From Spiroplasma mirum ATCC 29335 (lineage in GTDB: Bacteria > Bacillota_I > Bacilli_A > Mycoplasmatales > Mycoplasmataceae): a DNA stretch of 64,000 nucleotides. The notes beneath the pieces are model-generated. The model did not search any database. It had not been told where the DNA came from and saw only the letters and a list, made by a program, of their open reading frames with translations. Shown here in pieces: positions 42,263 to 48,553 of this stretch. Location: contig NZ_CP006720.1 of assembly GCF_000565195.1 (NCBI RefSeq), positions 868,001 to 932,000 of the forward strand. The letters are read 5' to 3'. Made by a program: the position numbers and the translations under genes. How positions within the stretch are numbered: the first letter of the stretch is position 1; every line of letters starts with the position of its first letter.

Positions 42263-43113
42263 TTATCTTTTTCTCGCAGCAATTAATAGCATCATTGGTC
42301 TTCGCAATTCATCTTCTATCCCTAAAACTGTTGCTAATAGTTTACTATCCGGTTTTGGTTCAACAAGATGGGTAATTTCAAAACCATGGTTAATCAATTC
42401 ATTAATATATGTTGTTAATGTTCGATAATATTTAAAAACTTTTTCACCTAAAAAATTCGTTTCACGAACACCTTCACTAAAATAATTGTCCACTGGCCAG
42501 TGCAAAATTTGCCCTTGGTTATTATAAAATCAATTTTCTGAACCCTCCGCCGTAAAGAATGGGTGTTCAACAAAAAAATAAACTCCCCATTTTTTGTTAA
42601 GTAATTATTAACCTTTGCACAAATATCAGAAAATGAATTTAAATAATAATGAAAAGTTAGTAAACTTAACACAACATCAAAAGATTCCTGAGGAAATTCA
42701 ATATCTTCAATTGATAATACCAAATTATTAGATTCAGTGTTGATTGTTTGATAAAGGTGTTTTCAATAAATAATGTCAACAAAAATTTGACCAATGATAG
42801 CCCCTAGAATTTGGGCAAGTAAGAGCGCAGGAACTAAAAATCACCCGTGTAAATTGAACCATGTTTTTTGAATAATAAAAGACAATGTGATGGTTGGATT
42901 TAAGTGTGCAACCCCATGCAGTGCAGTTGAAATCATAGCTCCCAGGATCACCCCACATCTTCATCCAGCAACAATTGCCATATAGCCACCTCCGTTACCT
43001 TTGATATTTTTTAAAACCATGTTAGCAACAGCAGCATTGCAAATCACAATTAAAATAGCGGTGCCAAATAATTCAAGAGCAAAATGCGTAAAAAATAATT
43101 AAACATCATTCAT
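42263..43113 (-). pseudogene. Chimeric pseudogene: GlpF-type aquaporin fused to SAM methyltransferase
   Basis: The first half is an aquaglyceroporin: FALELFGTAILIVICNAAVANMVL, GGGYMAIVAGW, GAMISTALHGVAHLNPTITLS with the first NPA-like box (here NPT), FLVPALLLAQILGAIIGQIF. Around 42.74 kb it runs in frame into the middle of a class I methyltransferase (LSIEDIEFPQESFDVVLSLLTFHY), losing the second half of GlpF and the SAM-binding start. A TAA stands at codon 5 (43099-43101) just behind a strong AAGGGAA site, and a one-base deletion in a T7 run (42572-42578) shifts the remaining VEHPFFTAEGSENW ... MMLLIAARKR. Clearly the scar of a deletion, then decay. Confidence 0.8.
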
Positions 43114-43297: not shown

Positions 43298-43774
43298 ATG
43301 TATCGAAAAATTACTAAAAATCTTTATTTAGGAGATTATATGTCAAGAAATAGTGATTCATTGATTGATATTAACGCTGCTGAAGAATTAGATCAAAGCA
43401 GTGACCTTAGCCAACAAAAACTATTTATGAATCCTATTAAAACTGAAGAAAATGTCCAATATTTTAGTTTCCCATTTCCGGATTTTATCTTTACTGATCA
43501 AAAAATAAATATCCAACAAATTAAGGAGATTTTAAAACTCCTTGATTATTACATTAACCTTAAAGATGAAAATGTTTATTTACACTGTGTTCAGGGAATT
43601 AATCGAAGTGCTAGTGTTGCTTTTATGTTTTGTGTCATTAATAATATTGTTGATAATAATAACTTTGAAACAGCATTTACGGCGTTCAAAACAATTTATC
43701 CTGAAATTGAGCCAACACCTGGATGAGAATTATTTCTAAAAAAACGTTTTCCATATAAAAATTTGGTAAGTTAA
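43298..43774 (+). CDS. Dual-specificity protein phosphatase-like protein
   Basis: 158-aa cysteine phosphatase of the DSP class. The nucleophile loop is HCVQGINRSASVAFMF (HCxxGxxRS), and an Asp-containing loop (FPFPDFIFTD) lies about 40 residues upstream where the general acid is expected. The start MYRKITKNLYLGDY matches the eukaryotic-type DSP opening 'I...LYLGD'. The C-terminal part contains the usual helix and ends RFPYKNLVS. There is no signal peptide or membrane segment, so it acts in the cytoplasm unless released. Single gene with its own terminator, convergent with yhaM. Substrate unknown. Confidence 0.82.
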
Positions 43775-43795
43775 TGATTAACTTACCAAATTTTT
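43757..43795. terminator. Bidirectional terminator between the phosphatase gene and yhaM
   Basis: Perfect 18-bp arms with a 3-nt loop overlap the phosphatase stop codon. T-runs lie on both sides. Confidence 0.85.
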
Positions 43796-44738
43796 ATTTT
43801 TTATTAAAATGTTTAATAAACCAACGGTTTTCCACTGATAATAACCGTGGGGTCTGACCATTTAACTCAACTTTTTCTAGTTCTTTATCAATCCGATAAA
43901 TTCGGGCATCTAAATTATCTAAAAATGATAAAATCTCAGCTTCTAAAATATGGGGTTCAACTGGTGAACCATATTCTAACCGACCATGGCTAGCTAAAAT
44001 CATATGCTCTAACAAAATAATATTATCATTATATAAATTATGTTCTTTGGCAATTGTATGTAACTCATTAGCCATAATTGAAATATGTCCTAATAACTTA
44101 CCTTCTAATGAAAAGTCACTACTTGTTCCGGTTGTAATTTCAACTACTTTTCCTAAATCATGTAGAATAATTCCACAATATAATAAATCTAAATCAATTA
44201 AGCGATCATGGTAAACATTCCCAACAGCTTTTGCCATTTGTAACATTGTTAAACTATGTCATAGTAGTCCCGACTGAATTTCATGGTGATTACGAATAGC
44301 GGCTGGTCAAATTTTAAAATGTTCTCCATATTTTTGTAAAATTAACCGCATAATGTTTTGATAATCGCTGTTGGTTAAATTATTTATTGTCTCTAAAATT
44401 CCATGGTACATAAGTTCCTTATCAAGTGGGGCAATAGGAATGAAATCTTCTAAGTTAACTGTTTCATTATCAACAACATCATAACTATTAATTTTTGCTT
44501 GTAAAACCTTACGGTATTCAATCACATTAATATTTACTTTATAAAAATTCCCTTTAACTCAAGTTTCCAAATCATGAGGTTTGGCGTCTCATAATCGAGC
44601 TTCAATTGTTCCAGTTTTATCTTTTAGTAAAATTGTCAAATAAGTATTACCATTACTTGCCACAGCTTGCGAGACCTTATCCGCAATGGCAATTAAAGTA
44701 ATATTATTAGCTTCTGTTGTTAAGTCTTTTATATTCAT
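43794..44738 (-). CDS. yhaM: 3'-5' exoribonuclease YhaM
   Basis: Metal-dependent RNA (and ssDNA) 3' exonuclease, 314 aa, the same length as the Bacillus enzyme. The N-terminal OB fold (ITLIAIADKVSQAVASNGNTYLTILLKDKTGTIEARLWDAK) is followed by an HD domain: NHHEIQSGLLWHSLTMLQMA, the HD pair in IILHDLGKVVE, HILASHG-like HMILASHGRLEYGSPVEP and AEILSFLDNLDARI. AAAGGACC precedes the ATG. Standalone gene downstream of the E2-like gene on the same strand, with a hairpin between them. Confidence 0.94.
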
Positions 44739-44763: not shown

Positions 44764-44793
44764 AAAAAGTGGTGAAACATTATCACCCTTTTA
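44764..44793 (-). terminator. Terminator of the E2-like gene
   Basis: A hairpin of AAAAG/CTTTT and GGTGA/TCACC with one mismatch, followed by a T-rich run, just past the stop codon. Confidence 0.55.
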
Positions 44794-44795
44794 TT

Positions 44796-46625
44796 TTATA
44801 ATAATAAACCTGGATTTGATAATAAATAAGCAACATAATGAATAAATTTGCTTGCCTCGGTAATATTAATCACTGATTCATCATAACCTAAAGTAATCAT
44901 CATAATATCACGGATTGCAATGTCATTCTTTTCAACAACTACTGGTTTTTTAAAGATAATTCCCATTCCAATGCTGGCAATTTGACTTTCGGGAATGGTA
45001 ACTGTCCCGCGGGTAATTCCATATTCACCAAAGTTTACAATTGAAAAGGTTGAATCTTGGTATTCATTCCCACGACTGTTTTCATTAACTGTTCGATCAA
45101 TTAAATCAGATAATTTAATGGCAATTTCTTTTACCGATTCATCAGTAATATTATGCAAAATCGGCATTTTCATAGTGTTAATATTATCAACGCTAACCGC
45201 AATGTTATAAAATCATTTAAACACCACCGCATTAGTTTCACGATCATAGCGGGCATTAAATAATGGGAACTTTTTTAAACCATCATGAACAGCTTTCACA
45301 TAAAATGGCATTAAAGTTAAATTAATGTTTTGCTGTAAATATGGCTCACGCATAATTGCTAATAAATTAACAAGTTCACTAACATCAACTTCCACATCAA
45401 TAAAACCATGTGCAATGTTGCGTTTACTGTTCATAATTTGTTGTTGTTTATTAATTGATTCATCTGTTAATTTTACGACATTAATTTGGGAGTTTTCCTC
45501 TTCACCATTAGGTGGAGTTGGTAACTCATCTGCCGCATTTTCAGTAACATCTGCTAAAATTTCATTAGCATGTTGAGAATCTTCATTTTCATTTAAGTTA
45601 GCAATTGATGTTGTGTTATCATTATTGTCTTGGTTAATTTCAGTGTTGTCTAAAACTTCGGAATGATTGGTTGGGAATAAATCATCTGCCAACTCTTGTG
45701 GCTCAAAATTAATACTCGGGTCTTCAACATCTAATTCTTCATCAAAATAGATCGTTTGGTCAACATGAAGATTTTCAGCTGGGGAAGTATCACCAATAAT
45801 TTCTTGTTCATTACTTTCCTTATTTAATTCATTTTGAATGTCTTCATAAACACAATGAATAGTTGTATCAGAAATTTGGTCATTCAACAGATGTTTTTTT
45901 TCCACAGATGGTTCTGGCGCTAGGTTAGCAATATTATTAATAATTTCTTGTTGGCTAGCTTTATTATTAAGTTCATTTTCAACATTTAATAAACTATTTT
46001 TAACGTTATCTAAATTAAACTCAAACGCTTCTAATTCCGCCGCAAACTCTTCGTTATTAATAATATCAGTCAACAATTCAGAAGTTAAATCTTGACTTGG
46101 CACTGGGGGTTCGGAATTTTCGAATGTCATTTTTGTCATTTCATTTTGGTTTAAATTTTCATTACCTAACTCAATTGTTGTGTCCCCTTCATCCGTACTC
46201 TTATCACTAGCAACTTCTCGCGATAATAACGTTTCAATTAACTCTTCACGAAATAGTTCCGTTTCGGATTTTTTATTATCATTTTGTTGATATGGGTTAC
46301 GTTCATTATTATAACGATTATTGACACTAGGTTGGTTATAAACTCCATAAGTTCCTTGGGTAGTTGATGATTCATTATTTAGCACATGGGGACTATCCGC
46401 ATCTTGAATTTCTAATAAAACATCGCCACTATTAATGACCTTATTTTCATACACTAAAATATTCTTAATAATTCCGGCCATTGGTGCTTTAATTTCATAA
46501 ATCTTATTTTGCGTAACCACACTTGTTAATTTATCATTTGCTTTCACTTCTTGATCATTATTAACAAAAAGTTTATCAATAATCCCTTTACGATTATCAT
46601 CTGCTTCAAATATAATTTTTACCAT
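44796..46625 (-). CDS. Dihydrolipoamide acyltransferase (E2)-like protein lacking the catalytic motif
   Basis: 609 aa in three parts. Residues 1-75 form a lipoyl/biotinyl domain (GIIDKLFVNNDQEVKANDKL, then QNKIYEIKAPMAGIIKNI with a Lys where lipoylation occurs, GDVLLEIQ). About 75-390 is an acidic Asn/Glu/Gln-rich linker. The C-terminal 210 residues follow the E2 acyltransferase core: HGFIDVEVDVSELVNLL, LTLMPFYVKAVHDGLKKFPLFNARYD, YNIAVSVD, STFSIVNFGEYGITRGTVTIPESQIASIGMG, MMITLGYDESVINITEASKF. Active E2 enzymes have DHRxxDG at that last site; here it is DESVINI, so the catalytic His and Asp are gone. GGAAGGA precedes the ATG. No E1 or E3 gene is adjacent. Role unknown. Confidence 0.78.
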
Positions 46626-46701
46626 CTTGAAAAAATCCTTCCTACTATACGCATCAATCATAACATATTTTACATTTGATTTAAACTAACCTAAAAATAT
46701 T

Positions 46702-46742: not shown

Positions 46743-48416
46743 CTAACTTAAATAATTAGCTTCTAGATCTTTAAACATGGCTTCCATTTTTGCTTTGGCA
46801 TTTGGTGTTGAGTTATCAACACAAACAAAATAGAATTTAATTTTAGGTTCTGTTCCACTTGCTCGCACCGCAAACCAACTACCATCTTTAAAATAAAATT
46901 TTAATAAATCTTGGCCGGGCATATTGTATAAACCATTTAAATAGTCTTCTTTATTAACACATTTAATTTTATTTAATTGTTTAATTTCCTCATTACGTAA
47001 TGTTTTTAACATATTTTTAATAATTTGTTTACCTTCAACGCCTTTTTTAACTAAGTTTACAGTGTAACAATAATAGTAACCGAATTTTTGGTAAATATCA
47101 TTTAAAACATCATACAGACTTTTTCCTTGTTGGTGATAGTATCAGCAAGCCTCCACAATTACCATTGAGGATTGAATTCCATCTTTATCACGGGTAATAT
47201 CTTTTAAAACATAACCATATGCTTCTTCAAACCCAAATAAGAATTTTAAATTGCGTTTGGGTTCTAAGCGCATTTGGGAACCAATTCATTTAAATCCGGT
47301 TAATGTTTTAATAACTTTAACCCCATAACTTTCCGCAACTTTATCAGATAAATTACCAGTAACAAAAGTATTATACATTACCCCATTTGGCGGTAAGGTA
47401 TTATTTTTTTTGTAATGTGAAAATAAATACTCAATTAGTACTGGGGCAGTTTCATTTCCTGTCATTAAATAATAATCATTAGCAGCTGTTTTGACCGCAA
47501 TTCCTAGCCGGTCAGCATCGGGGTCATTTAAAATGATAATATCCGCATCATGCTTTTTAGCATATTTAATTGCTAAATCATAACATTCTGGTAACTCCGG
47601 ATTAGGATTAGGCGCATAAGTAAAATCAGGATCATTTGGATACTGTTCTTCAACAATAATGACTTCATATCCACATTCGCGTAAAATTTTTGGGGTCCAA
47701 TCTTTACTTGTCCCGTGTAAGTTAGAAAAAACAATTTTAATGTTCCGAAATTGGTTTGGATAAAATTGCATTGCTTTCACATCATCAATATAATTTTGTT
47801 CAATTTGATGCGGAACATAAGTAATTAAATTGGGATCTGGATTTAATGCTAAATCAAAAACCTCATTTTTAATATTTAAATAGTATTCCCCAATCACATC
47901 CGTTGCAACAGGTAAAAATTGACAACCAAATTCATCATAAATTTTATAACCATTATATTCACGAGAATTATGACTAGCAGTAATAATAATCCCTGCTAAG
48001 GCATTAACCTTACGAATTGAATACGAAACCACGGGGGTTGGGCGTAATTCGTTTTTATCAAATAAAATTGCTTTAATATTATTAGTTGCTAAAATATTAG
48101 CAACTTCTTGGGCAAACTCAGTTGAAAAATGGCGATTGTCATGGCCAATTACCACTCCTTTTGTTTTTAAATCAGTTGGTGAATGCTGCGTTTGTAAAAA
48201 TTGCATAAATGCTAAAGTAGCACGGCGAATTGTATAAAGGTTCATTCTACCAGTTCCGGCCCCAATAATTCCCCGCAATCCGGCGGTCCCAAATTCAAGG
48301 TCATTAGCAAAAACTTCTTGTAGTTCAGTTTCATTCATTTTTTCAAATTCTGCTTTTAATTTAGGATCTAAATTATGAGCATTTTTCCATAAGTTTAAAT
48401 TATCTTGGTAAGACAC
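46743..48416 (-). CDS. Phosphoglucomutase/phosphomannomutase
   Basis: Alpha-D-phosphohexomutase that interconverts 1- and 6-phosphates of glucose or mannose through a phosphoserine. It is 557 aa, the PgcA-like size. Motifs in order: FGTAGLRGIIGAGTGRMN, VVIGHDNRHFS, ITASHNSREYNGYKIYDEFGCQ with the active Ser, metal loop LNDPDADRLGIAV, FGFEEAYGYVLKD sugar-binding loop, and RASGTEPKIKFYF phosphate-binding loop. GTG is used as start, 8 nt after AAAGGAG. It lies between the E2-like gene and phoU, as a single transcription unit. Confidence 0.95.
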
Positions 48417-48553
48417 CTCTTCCACTCCTTTATTTTTCGATAATAACACTCCTATTTTATACCATTCTCAAAATTGAGTAAATAATAAGTAATAAAATAT
48501 TAAGAAATTGCCAAAATAAAAATGCTTTTTAAAAGCACTTGGAAATAATTATT

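Follow-up and report, generated by a model that had tools for sequence, protein, structure and literature searches.

The minus-strand reading frame at 46625-44796 of the window, the 64,000-nucleotide stretch of the Spiroplasma mirum ATCC 29335 genome that we analysed, encodes a member of a conserved bacterial family of E2 pseudoenzymes that has a sister family. We use the working name E2L-A for this product, and E2L-B for a second dead E2 paralogue. E2L-A is related to the E2 subunit of pyruvate dehydrogenase (PDH) as an ancient paralogue. It is not a carrier or a pseudogene, nor is it an E3BP by the criteria of the E3BP family. We put the probability that it is a dead, PDH-independent E2 paralogue at about 0.85.

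The source genome is a single contig of 1,132,608 bp. The frame is open solely in the Mollicute code, where TGA is read as Trp; codon 471 is its single in-frame TGA, and reading with table 11 splits the protein into 482 and 125 aa. The 609-codon length given in a preliminary description of this DNA holds in that code, and lies far beyond the longest open runs in shuffled 3-kb sequence (mean 103, maximum 171 codons). A longer frame could begin at ATG 46661, but the starts of the orthologues match 46625 instead. The good ribosome-binding site of that description is the AGGAAGG listed in Table 1. The terminator that it reported corresponds to a hairpin that is indeed present, but weak and no better than terminator-like.

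Table 1. Positions of the features discussed in the text; coordinates are those of the window except for E2L-B
Feature	Position	Strand	Remarks
E2L-A coding sequence	44796..46625	-	609 codons, Mollicute code (TGA=Trp)
E2L-A start and stop	ATG 46625; stop 44796-44798	-	
Ribosome-binding site AGGAAGG	46637..46643	-	5' of ATG 46625; from sequence
Lipoyl-like domain	46395..46625	-	residues 1-77; fold of Biotin_lipoyl type without the acceptor Lys
Asn40-Lys41 codons	46503..46508	-	hairpin tip; Asn40 in lipoyl-Lys column
Acidic Asn/Glu-rich linker	45483..46394	-	residues 78-381; predicted largely disordered, few helices
Linker helix KKSETELFREELIETLLSR	46215..46277	-	approximate bounds; conserved across home genus (alignment; AF2 helix 121-137)
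E2 core (2-oxoacid_dh)	44799..45482	-	residues ~382-609; Pfam, alignment, Foldseek
In-frame TGA (Trp)	45213..45215	-	codon 471
DESVINI	44862..44882	-	residues 582-588; degenerate DHRxxDG, Glu583 in place of catalytic His
C-terminal NPGLLL	44799..44816	-	little changed in nearly all aligned orthologues; resembles hydrophobic C-terminus of PdhC
Terminator-like hairpin	44771..44787	-	5 pairs, weak; between E2L-A and yhaM
yhaM-like gene	43794..44738	-	OB+HD exonuclease; conserved downstream neighbour of E2L-A
pgcA-like gene	46743..48449	-	phosphoglucomutase/phosphomannomutase; upstream neighbour of E2L-A in home genus
E2L-B	G000:C1:79553-82549 (L032:3554-6553)		999 aa, DQRIIDA

The protein has the order of domains found in bacterial PDH E2 (PdhC/AceF), i.e. 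a lipoyl-like domain, a linker and an E2 core. Pfam matched the core to 2-oxoacid_dh (PF00198, 2.4e-42) and the N-terminus to Biotin_lipoyl (1.3e-6). In the AF2 model both of these domains (residues 1-77 and ~382-609) are reasonably confident while the linker is mostly disordered, and a Foldseek search with the model returned the E2 cores of solved complexes. The folds named in the preliminary description are thus borne out, although neither the absence of the lipoyl Lys nor that of an E1/E3-binding domain was noticed there. The core is 32% identical to that of PdhC from the same genome. E2L-A differs from PdhC/AceF in lacking the catalytic His, the lipoyl Lys and the peripheral subunit-binding domain; no match to E3_binding (PF02817) was found in E2L-A, with PdhC of the same genome positive in the control search. 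Its acidic linker is also much longer. The Asn/Glu-rich composition described earlier is correct (N+E 30%, net charge -56), but the linker comprises ~304 residues rather than ~315. In G002, G005 and G010 (L065, L066, L064) the linker is expanded by repeats rich in His, Ser and Lys, giving proteins of 751-762 aa.

The replacement of DHRxxDG by DESVINI, taken in the preliminary description as a sign of a dead active site, is confirmed by alignment with DHRLIDG: His is changed to Glu, Arg to Ser, Asp to Asn and Gly to Ile. In the E2p of A. vinelandii the Asp position is occupied by Asn614, so that the Asp to Asn change alone does not constitute a loss. The loss of the His is conserved. Its column contains E14/N2/C1/Q1 in the 18 aligned E2L-A orthologues (i.e. 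His in 0/18, and none with an intact DHRxxDG, the observation named earlier as the one that would overturn the proposal), compared with His in 23/23 PdhC sequences. The E2L-A core is therefore predicted to be catalytically inactive. It could be argued that the protein keeps a different catalysis, either another acyl transfer or one using Glu583 as a base, and Glu does occupy the former His position in 14 of the 18. However, the other four sequences have N, C or Q there and the adjacent residues of the motif vary; moreover, the known E2/CAT chemistry requires the His. We consider a retained activity of this kind improbable.

The lipoyl-like domain has suffered a corresponding change. The lipoyl-Lys column contains N10/L4/S3/F1 in the same 18 orthologues, whereas it is Lys in 17/17 PdhC sequences, and from these residues E2L-A is judged to be non-lipoylated. 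A role as a lipoyl or biotin carrier, suggested in the preliminary description, would be in keeping with the barrel-sandwich domain matched by Biotin_lipoyl and with the presence of Lys41 next to the acceptor position. Yet the acceptor Lys of lipoyl and biotin domains must sit exactly at the tip of the hairpin, the acceptor column never contains Lys, and Lys41, one place past it, is itself replaced by Arg in two of the orthologues and by Glu in four. The carrier role is rejected as very improbable.

The same genome contains a true PdhC. The operon nox-lplA-pdhA-pdhB-pdhC-pdhD lies at ~299.5-306.7 kb, ~0.6 Mb from E2L-A, and its pdhC has an intact DHRLIDG; the search for a real pdhC elsewhere in the genome that was proposed at the outset thus finds an intact pdhABCD operon. 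Three E2-like genes are present in all (PdhC, E2L-A and E2L-B), and the other two were absent from the preliminary description. In a maximum-likelihood tree of the cores a single branch sets each of E2L-A, E2L-B and PdhC apart from the rest (98/98, 100/99 and 95/93 respectively), with long-branch warnings on some E2L-A rows.

Comparison of the window genome with its nearest relative G004 gave dN/dS values for E2L-A of 0.035 in the core, 0.18 in the lipoyl-like domain and 0.28 in the linker; the value for the E2L-B core was 0.019, and that for the whole of PdhC 0.094. These ratios indicate that the E2L-A core is under purifying selection. Together with intact frames in nearly all carriers, this agrees with the earlier statement that the gene is maintained. 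Close citri-type pairs gave dN/dS of 0.4-0.9, E2L-B likewise, where very low divergence accounts for part of the effect; selection on both proteins may be relaxed within the citri-type genomes. A broken copy of E2L-A occurs in one relative, G008, as might be expected of a pdhC pseudogene in decay. That explanation can nevertheless be ruled out for practical purposes by the nearly universal intact frames of the orthologues, the low dN/dS of the core, the clade distinct from PdhC and the true PdhC elsewhere in the genome.

Five genomes of the home genus lack a working PDH (G001, G006, G008, G011 and G013); these have lost pdhA or retain it truncated, and of pdhC they have either nothing or only pieces (L077, L079, L067, L076, L078). 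The E2L-A frame is intact in G001, G006, G011 and G013 despite the loss of PDH, and in G001 and G006 it stands beside the remains of the deleted pdh operon. In G008 E2L-A is broken, where Fib, the MreBs and E2L-B are intact. E2L-B is intact in all five. We note that several citri-type Spiroplasma have a PDH operon that is in decay or has been deleted, and that some still carry remnants of it.

Dead E2 paralogues are known in eukaryotic PDH, as E3BP or protein X. E2L-A shares with E3BP an origin from E2, an E2-like topology and an inactive core, so we considered whether it might be a bacterial equivalent, a dead paralogue within the PDH core. In several relatives the gene stands immediately ahead of the pdh operon, in the order yhaM-nox-lplA-pdhABCD, as this would predict. 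However, a domain that specifically binds E3 is a criterion of the E3BP family (PMC10156792), and E2L-A has none. Moreover, E2L-A is retained intact in the four genomes without PDH, it is absent from Fib-negative genera that possess PdhC, and in the window species it is remote from the pdh operon. An E3BP-like PDH component is thus mostly rejected, and seems to us unlikely.

The second paralogue, E2L-B, resembles E2L-A in having a lipoyl-like N-terminus, a long linker and a dead core, and in occurring in nearly the same set of organisms. It differs in forming its own clade, in its length of ~1000 aa, in conserved linker segments (FRxLVxxRRxQL ... GRPKIxRNI) and in a fixed His to Gln change in the catalytic column (24/24). 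Its core is more conserved between species than that of PdhC (84 vs 72% identity to G003). The AF2 model of E2L-B has a mean pLDDT of 48 and can be interpreted for the two end domains only. In genus g10 the protein (G022 L127:1439-3055 and G029 L128:1531-3513) is diverged and has no lipoyl-like domain, but it retains the core and the FRxLVxxR / GxPKxxRN motif of the linker. A contig search with E2L-B gave five loci, three of them from citri-group species.

The gene that immediately follows E2L-A is yhaM in genera g1, g6, g7, g8 and g12, and in the g11 genomes examined except G064, where the two are ~9 kb apart. This shared position in six genera supports the orthology of the E2L-A genes. The adjacency, with overlapping frames in some genomes, could also point to a scaffold or regulator that is tied to YhaM in nucleic-acid turnover. 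But yhaM is present in 60/60 genomes of the family, including all 18 without E2L-A, so that YhaM has no need of E2L-A, and in G064 the adjacency is broken. The universal presence of yhaM lowers our estimate of a partnership, which we regard as rather unlikely. It also shows that the pattern of distribution of E2L-A is not a general one.

That distribution was compared with Fib over 60 genomes of one family, 42 of which are Fib-positive (i.e. have full-length or near-full-length Fib) and 18 Fib-negative. In the home genus the Fib query was matched over its full length at 90-98%, and a second search used a retrieved sequence. E2L-B is present in exactly the 42 Fib-positive genomes, a match of 60/60. 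E2L-A is found in six genera, in 40/42 of the Fib-positive genomes (the copy in G008 being broken) and in 0/18 of the Fib-negative, a match of 58/60; it is absent from both g10 genomes (G022 and G029), which have MreBs and a diverged Fib of 34-43% identity. Several strong MreB matches were obtained in the same 42 genomes, and only weak ones in the other 18. The Fib-negative genera may stem from one or a few losses, and the profile could then be common to many unrelated genes. The link of E2L-A to the cytoskeleton is a correlation only.

Outside this family, in genus g20 of family f9, G055 has four intact MreBs and an intact E2L-B, both are decaying in G044, and in G088 MreB is absent and E2L-B broken. 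G050 and G083 have neither, and PdhC is also absent. Decay and loss of E2L-B thus go along with loss of MreB in this series. Fib was not found in this genus by the Fib search.

Fib has been said to be absent from S. helicoides and S. sabaudiense (PMC9582952; for S. sabaudiense also PMC9663586). Full-length Fib of 65-66% identity occurs in genus g12 at G031:C1:504175-505707 and G036:C1:366301-367833, with one TAA in G036. In S. eriocheiris, proteomic analyses of the Triton-insoluble core and of the ribbon have identified Fib, the MreBs, FtsH and SPE-1201 (PMC5289999 Table 1, PMC9582952 Table 2). No E2 is among these proteins in the two studies, which covered excised gel bands only.

With the other readings weighed, the scaffold suggested in the preliminary description is the best remaining role, and we give even odds that E2L-A is a non-catalytic structural scaffold, whatever its client. 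E2 cores are trimers, and NPGLLL is kept in distant orthologues; on these grounds the E2L-A core would still self-assemble as trimers, and larger assemblies could perhaps form through the retained hydrophobic C-terminus. Each subunit would bear a lipoyl-like knob at the end of a long arm, acidic and flexible, that includes a short helix, so that the particle might act as a multivalent scaffold or hub. The weakest step is the placing of its clients in the helical-cell (MreB/Fib) programme. Taken as a whole, a scaffold of that programme is a tentative proposal, against which the odds lie. More doubtful still is the fuller suggestion that E2L-A and E2L-B together could belong, as structural components, to the machinery that makes Spiroplasma cells helical and lets them swim, their E2 cores having become multivalent hubs organising MreB/Fib or the polar tip. 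The possibility of a surface protein, also raised earlier, found no supporting evidence, and no signal sequence is apparent in E2L-A by inspection.

Fib itself offers a precedent in the same bacteria, as a metabolic enzyme fold (nucleosidase) that has become structural, and its phyletic profile is shared with the E2L proteins. The folds are different, and of these proteins only Fib is a shown component of the ribbon. In the literature searched we found no report of dead E2 paralogues or E2 pseudoenzymes in bacteria, the setting in which E2L-A also differs from E3BP. If the scaffold proposal is correct, the two E2L families would exemplify, in bacteria, the conversion of a metabolic core into a scaffold. 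MreBs together with fibril were not enough to make M. capricolum swim efficiently, and further, unknown Spiroplasma components are stated to be required (PMC9663586); on the fuller suggestion above, E2L-A and E2L-B would be candidates for those missing beyond MreB1-5 and Fib. Both proteins are easily mis-annotated as PDH E2, which would lead to confusion in metabolic models and proteomics.

Some further features were observed downstream in the window. A 20-pair hairpin with a T tail at 43755-43797, between yhaM and a convergent phosphatase-like gene, is a likely terminator. The latter gene (43298-43774, plus strand) is small and resembles dual-specificity phosphatases (DSPc 1e-7, slightly under the cut-off). 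Beyond it, a piece resembling a major intrinsic protein (MIP) channel and a piece of a methyltransferase are joined in a single minus-strand frame at 42448-43047, which looks like a chimeric remnant.
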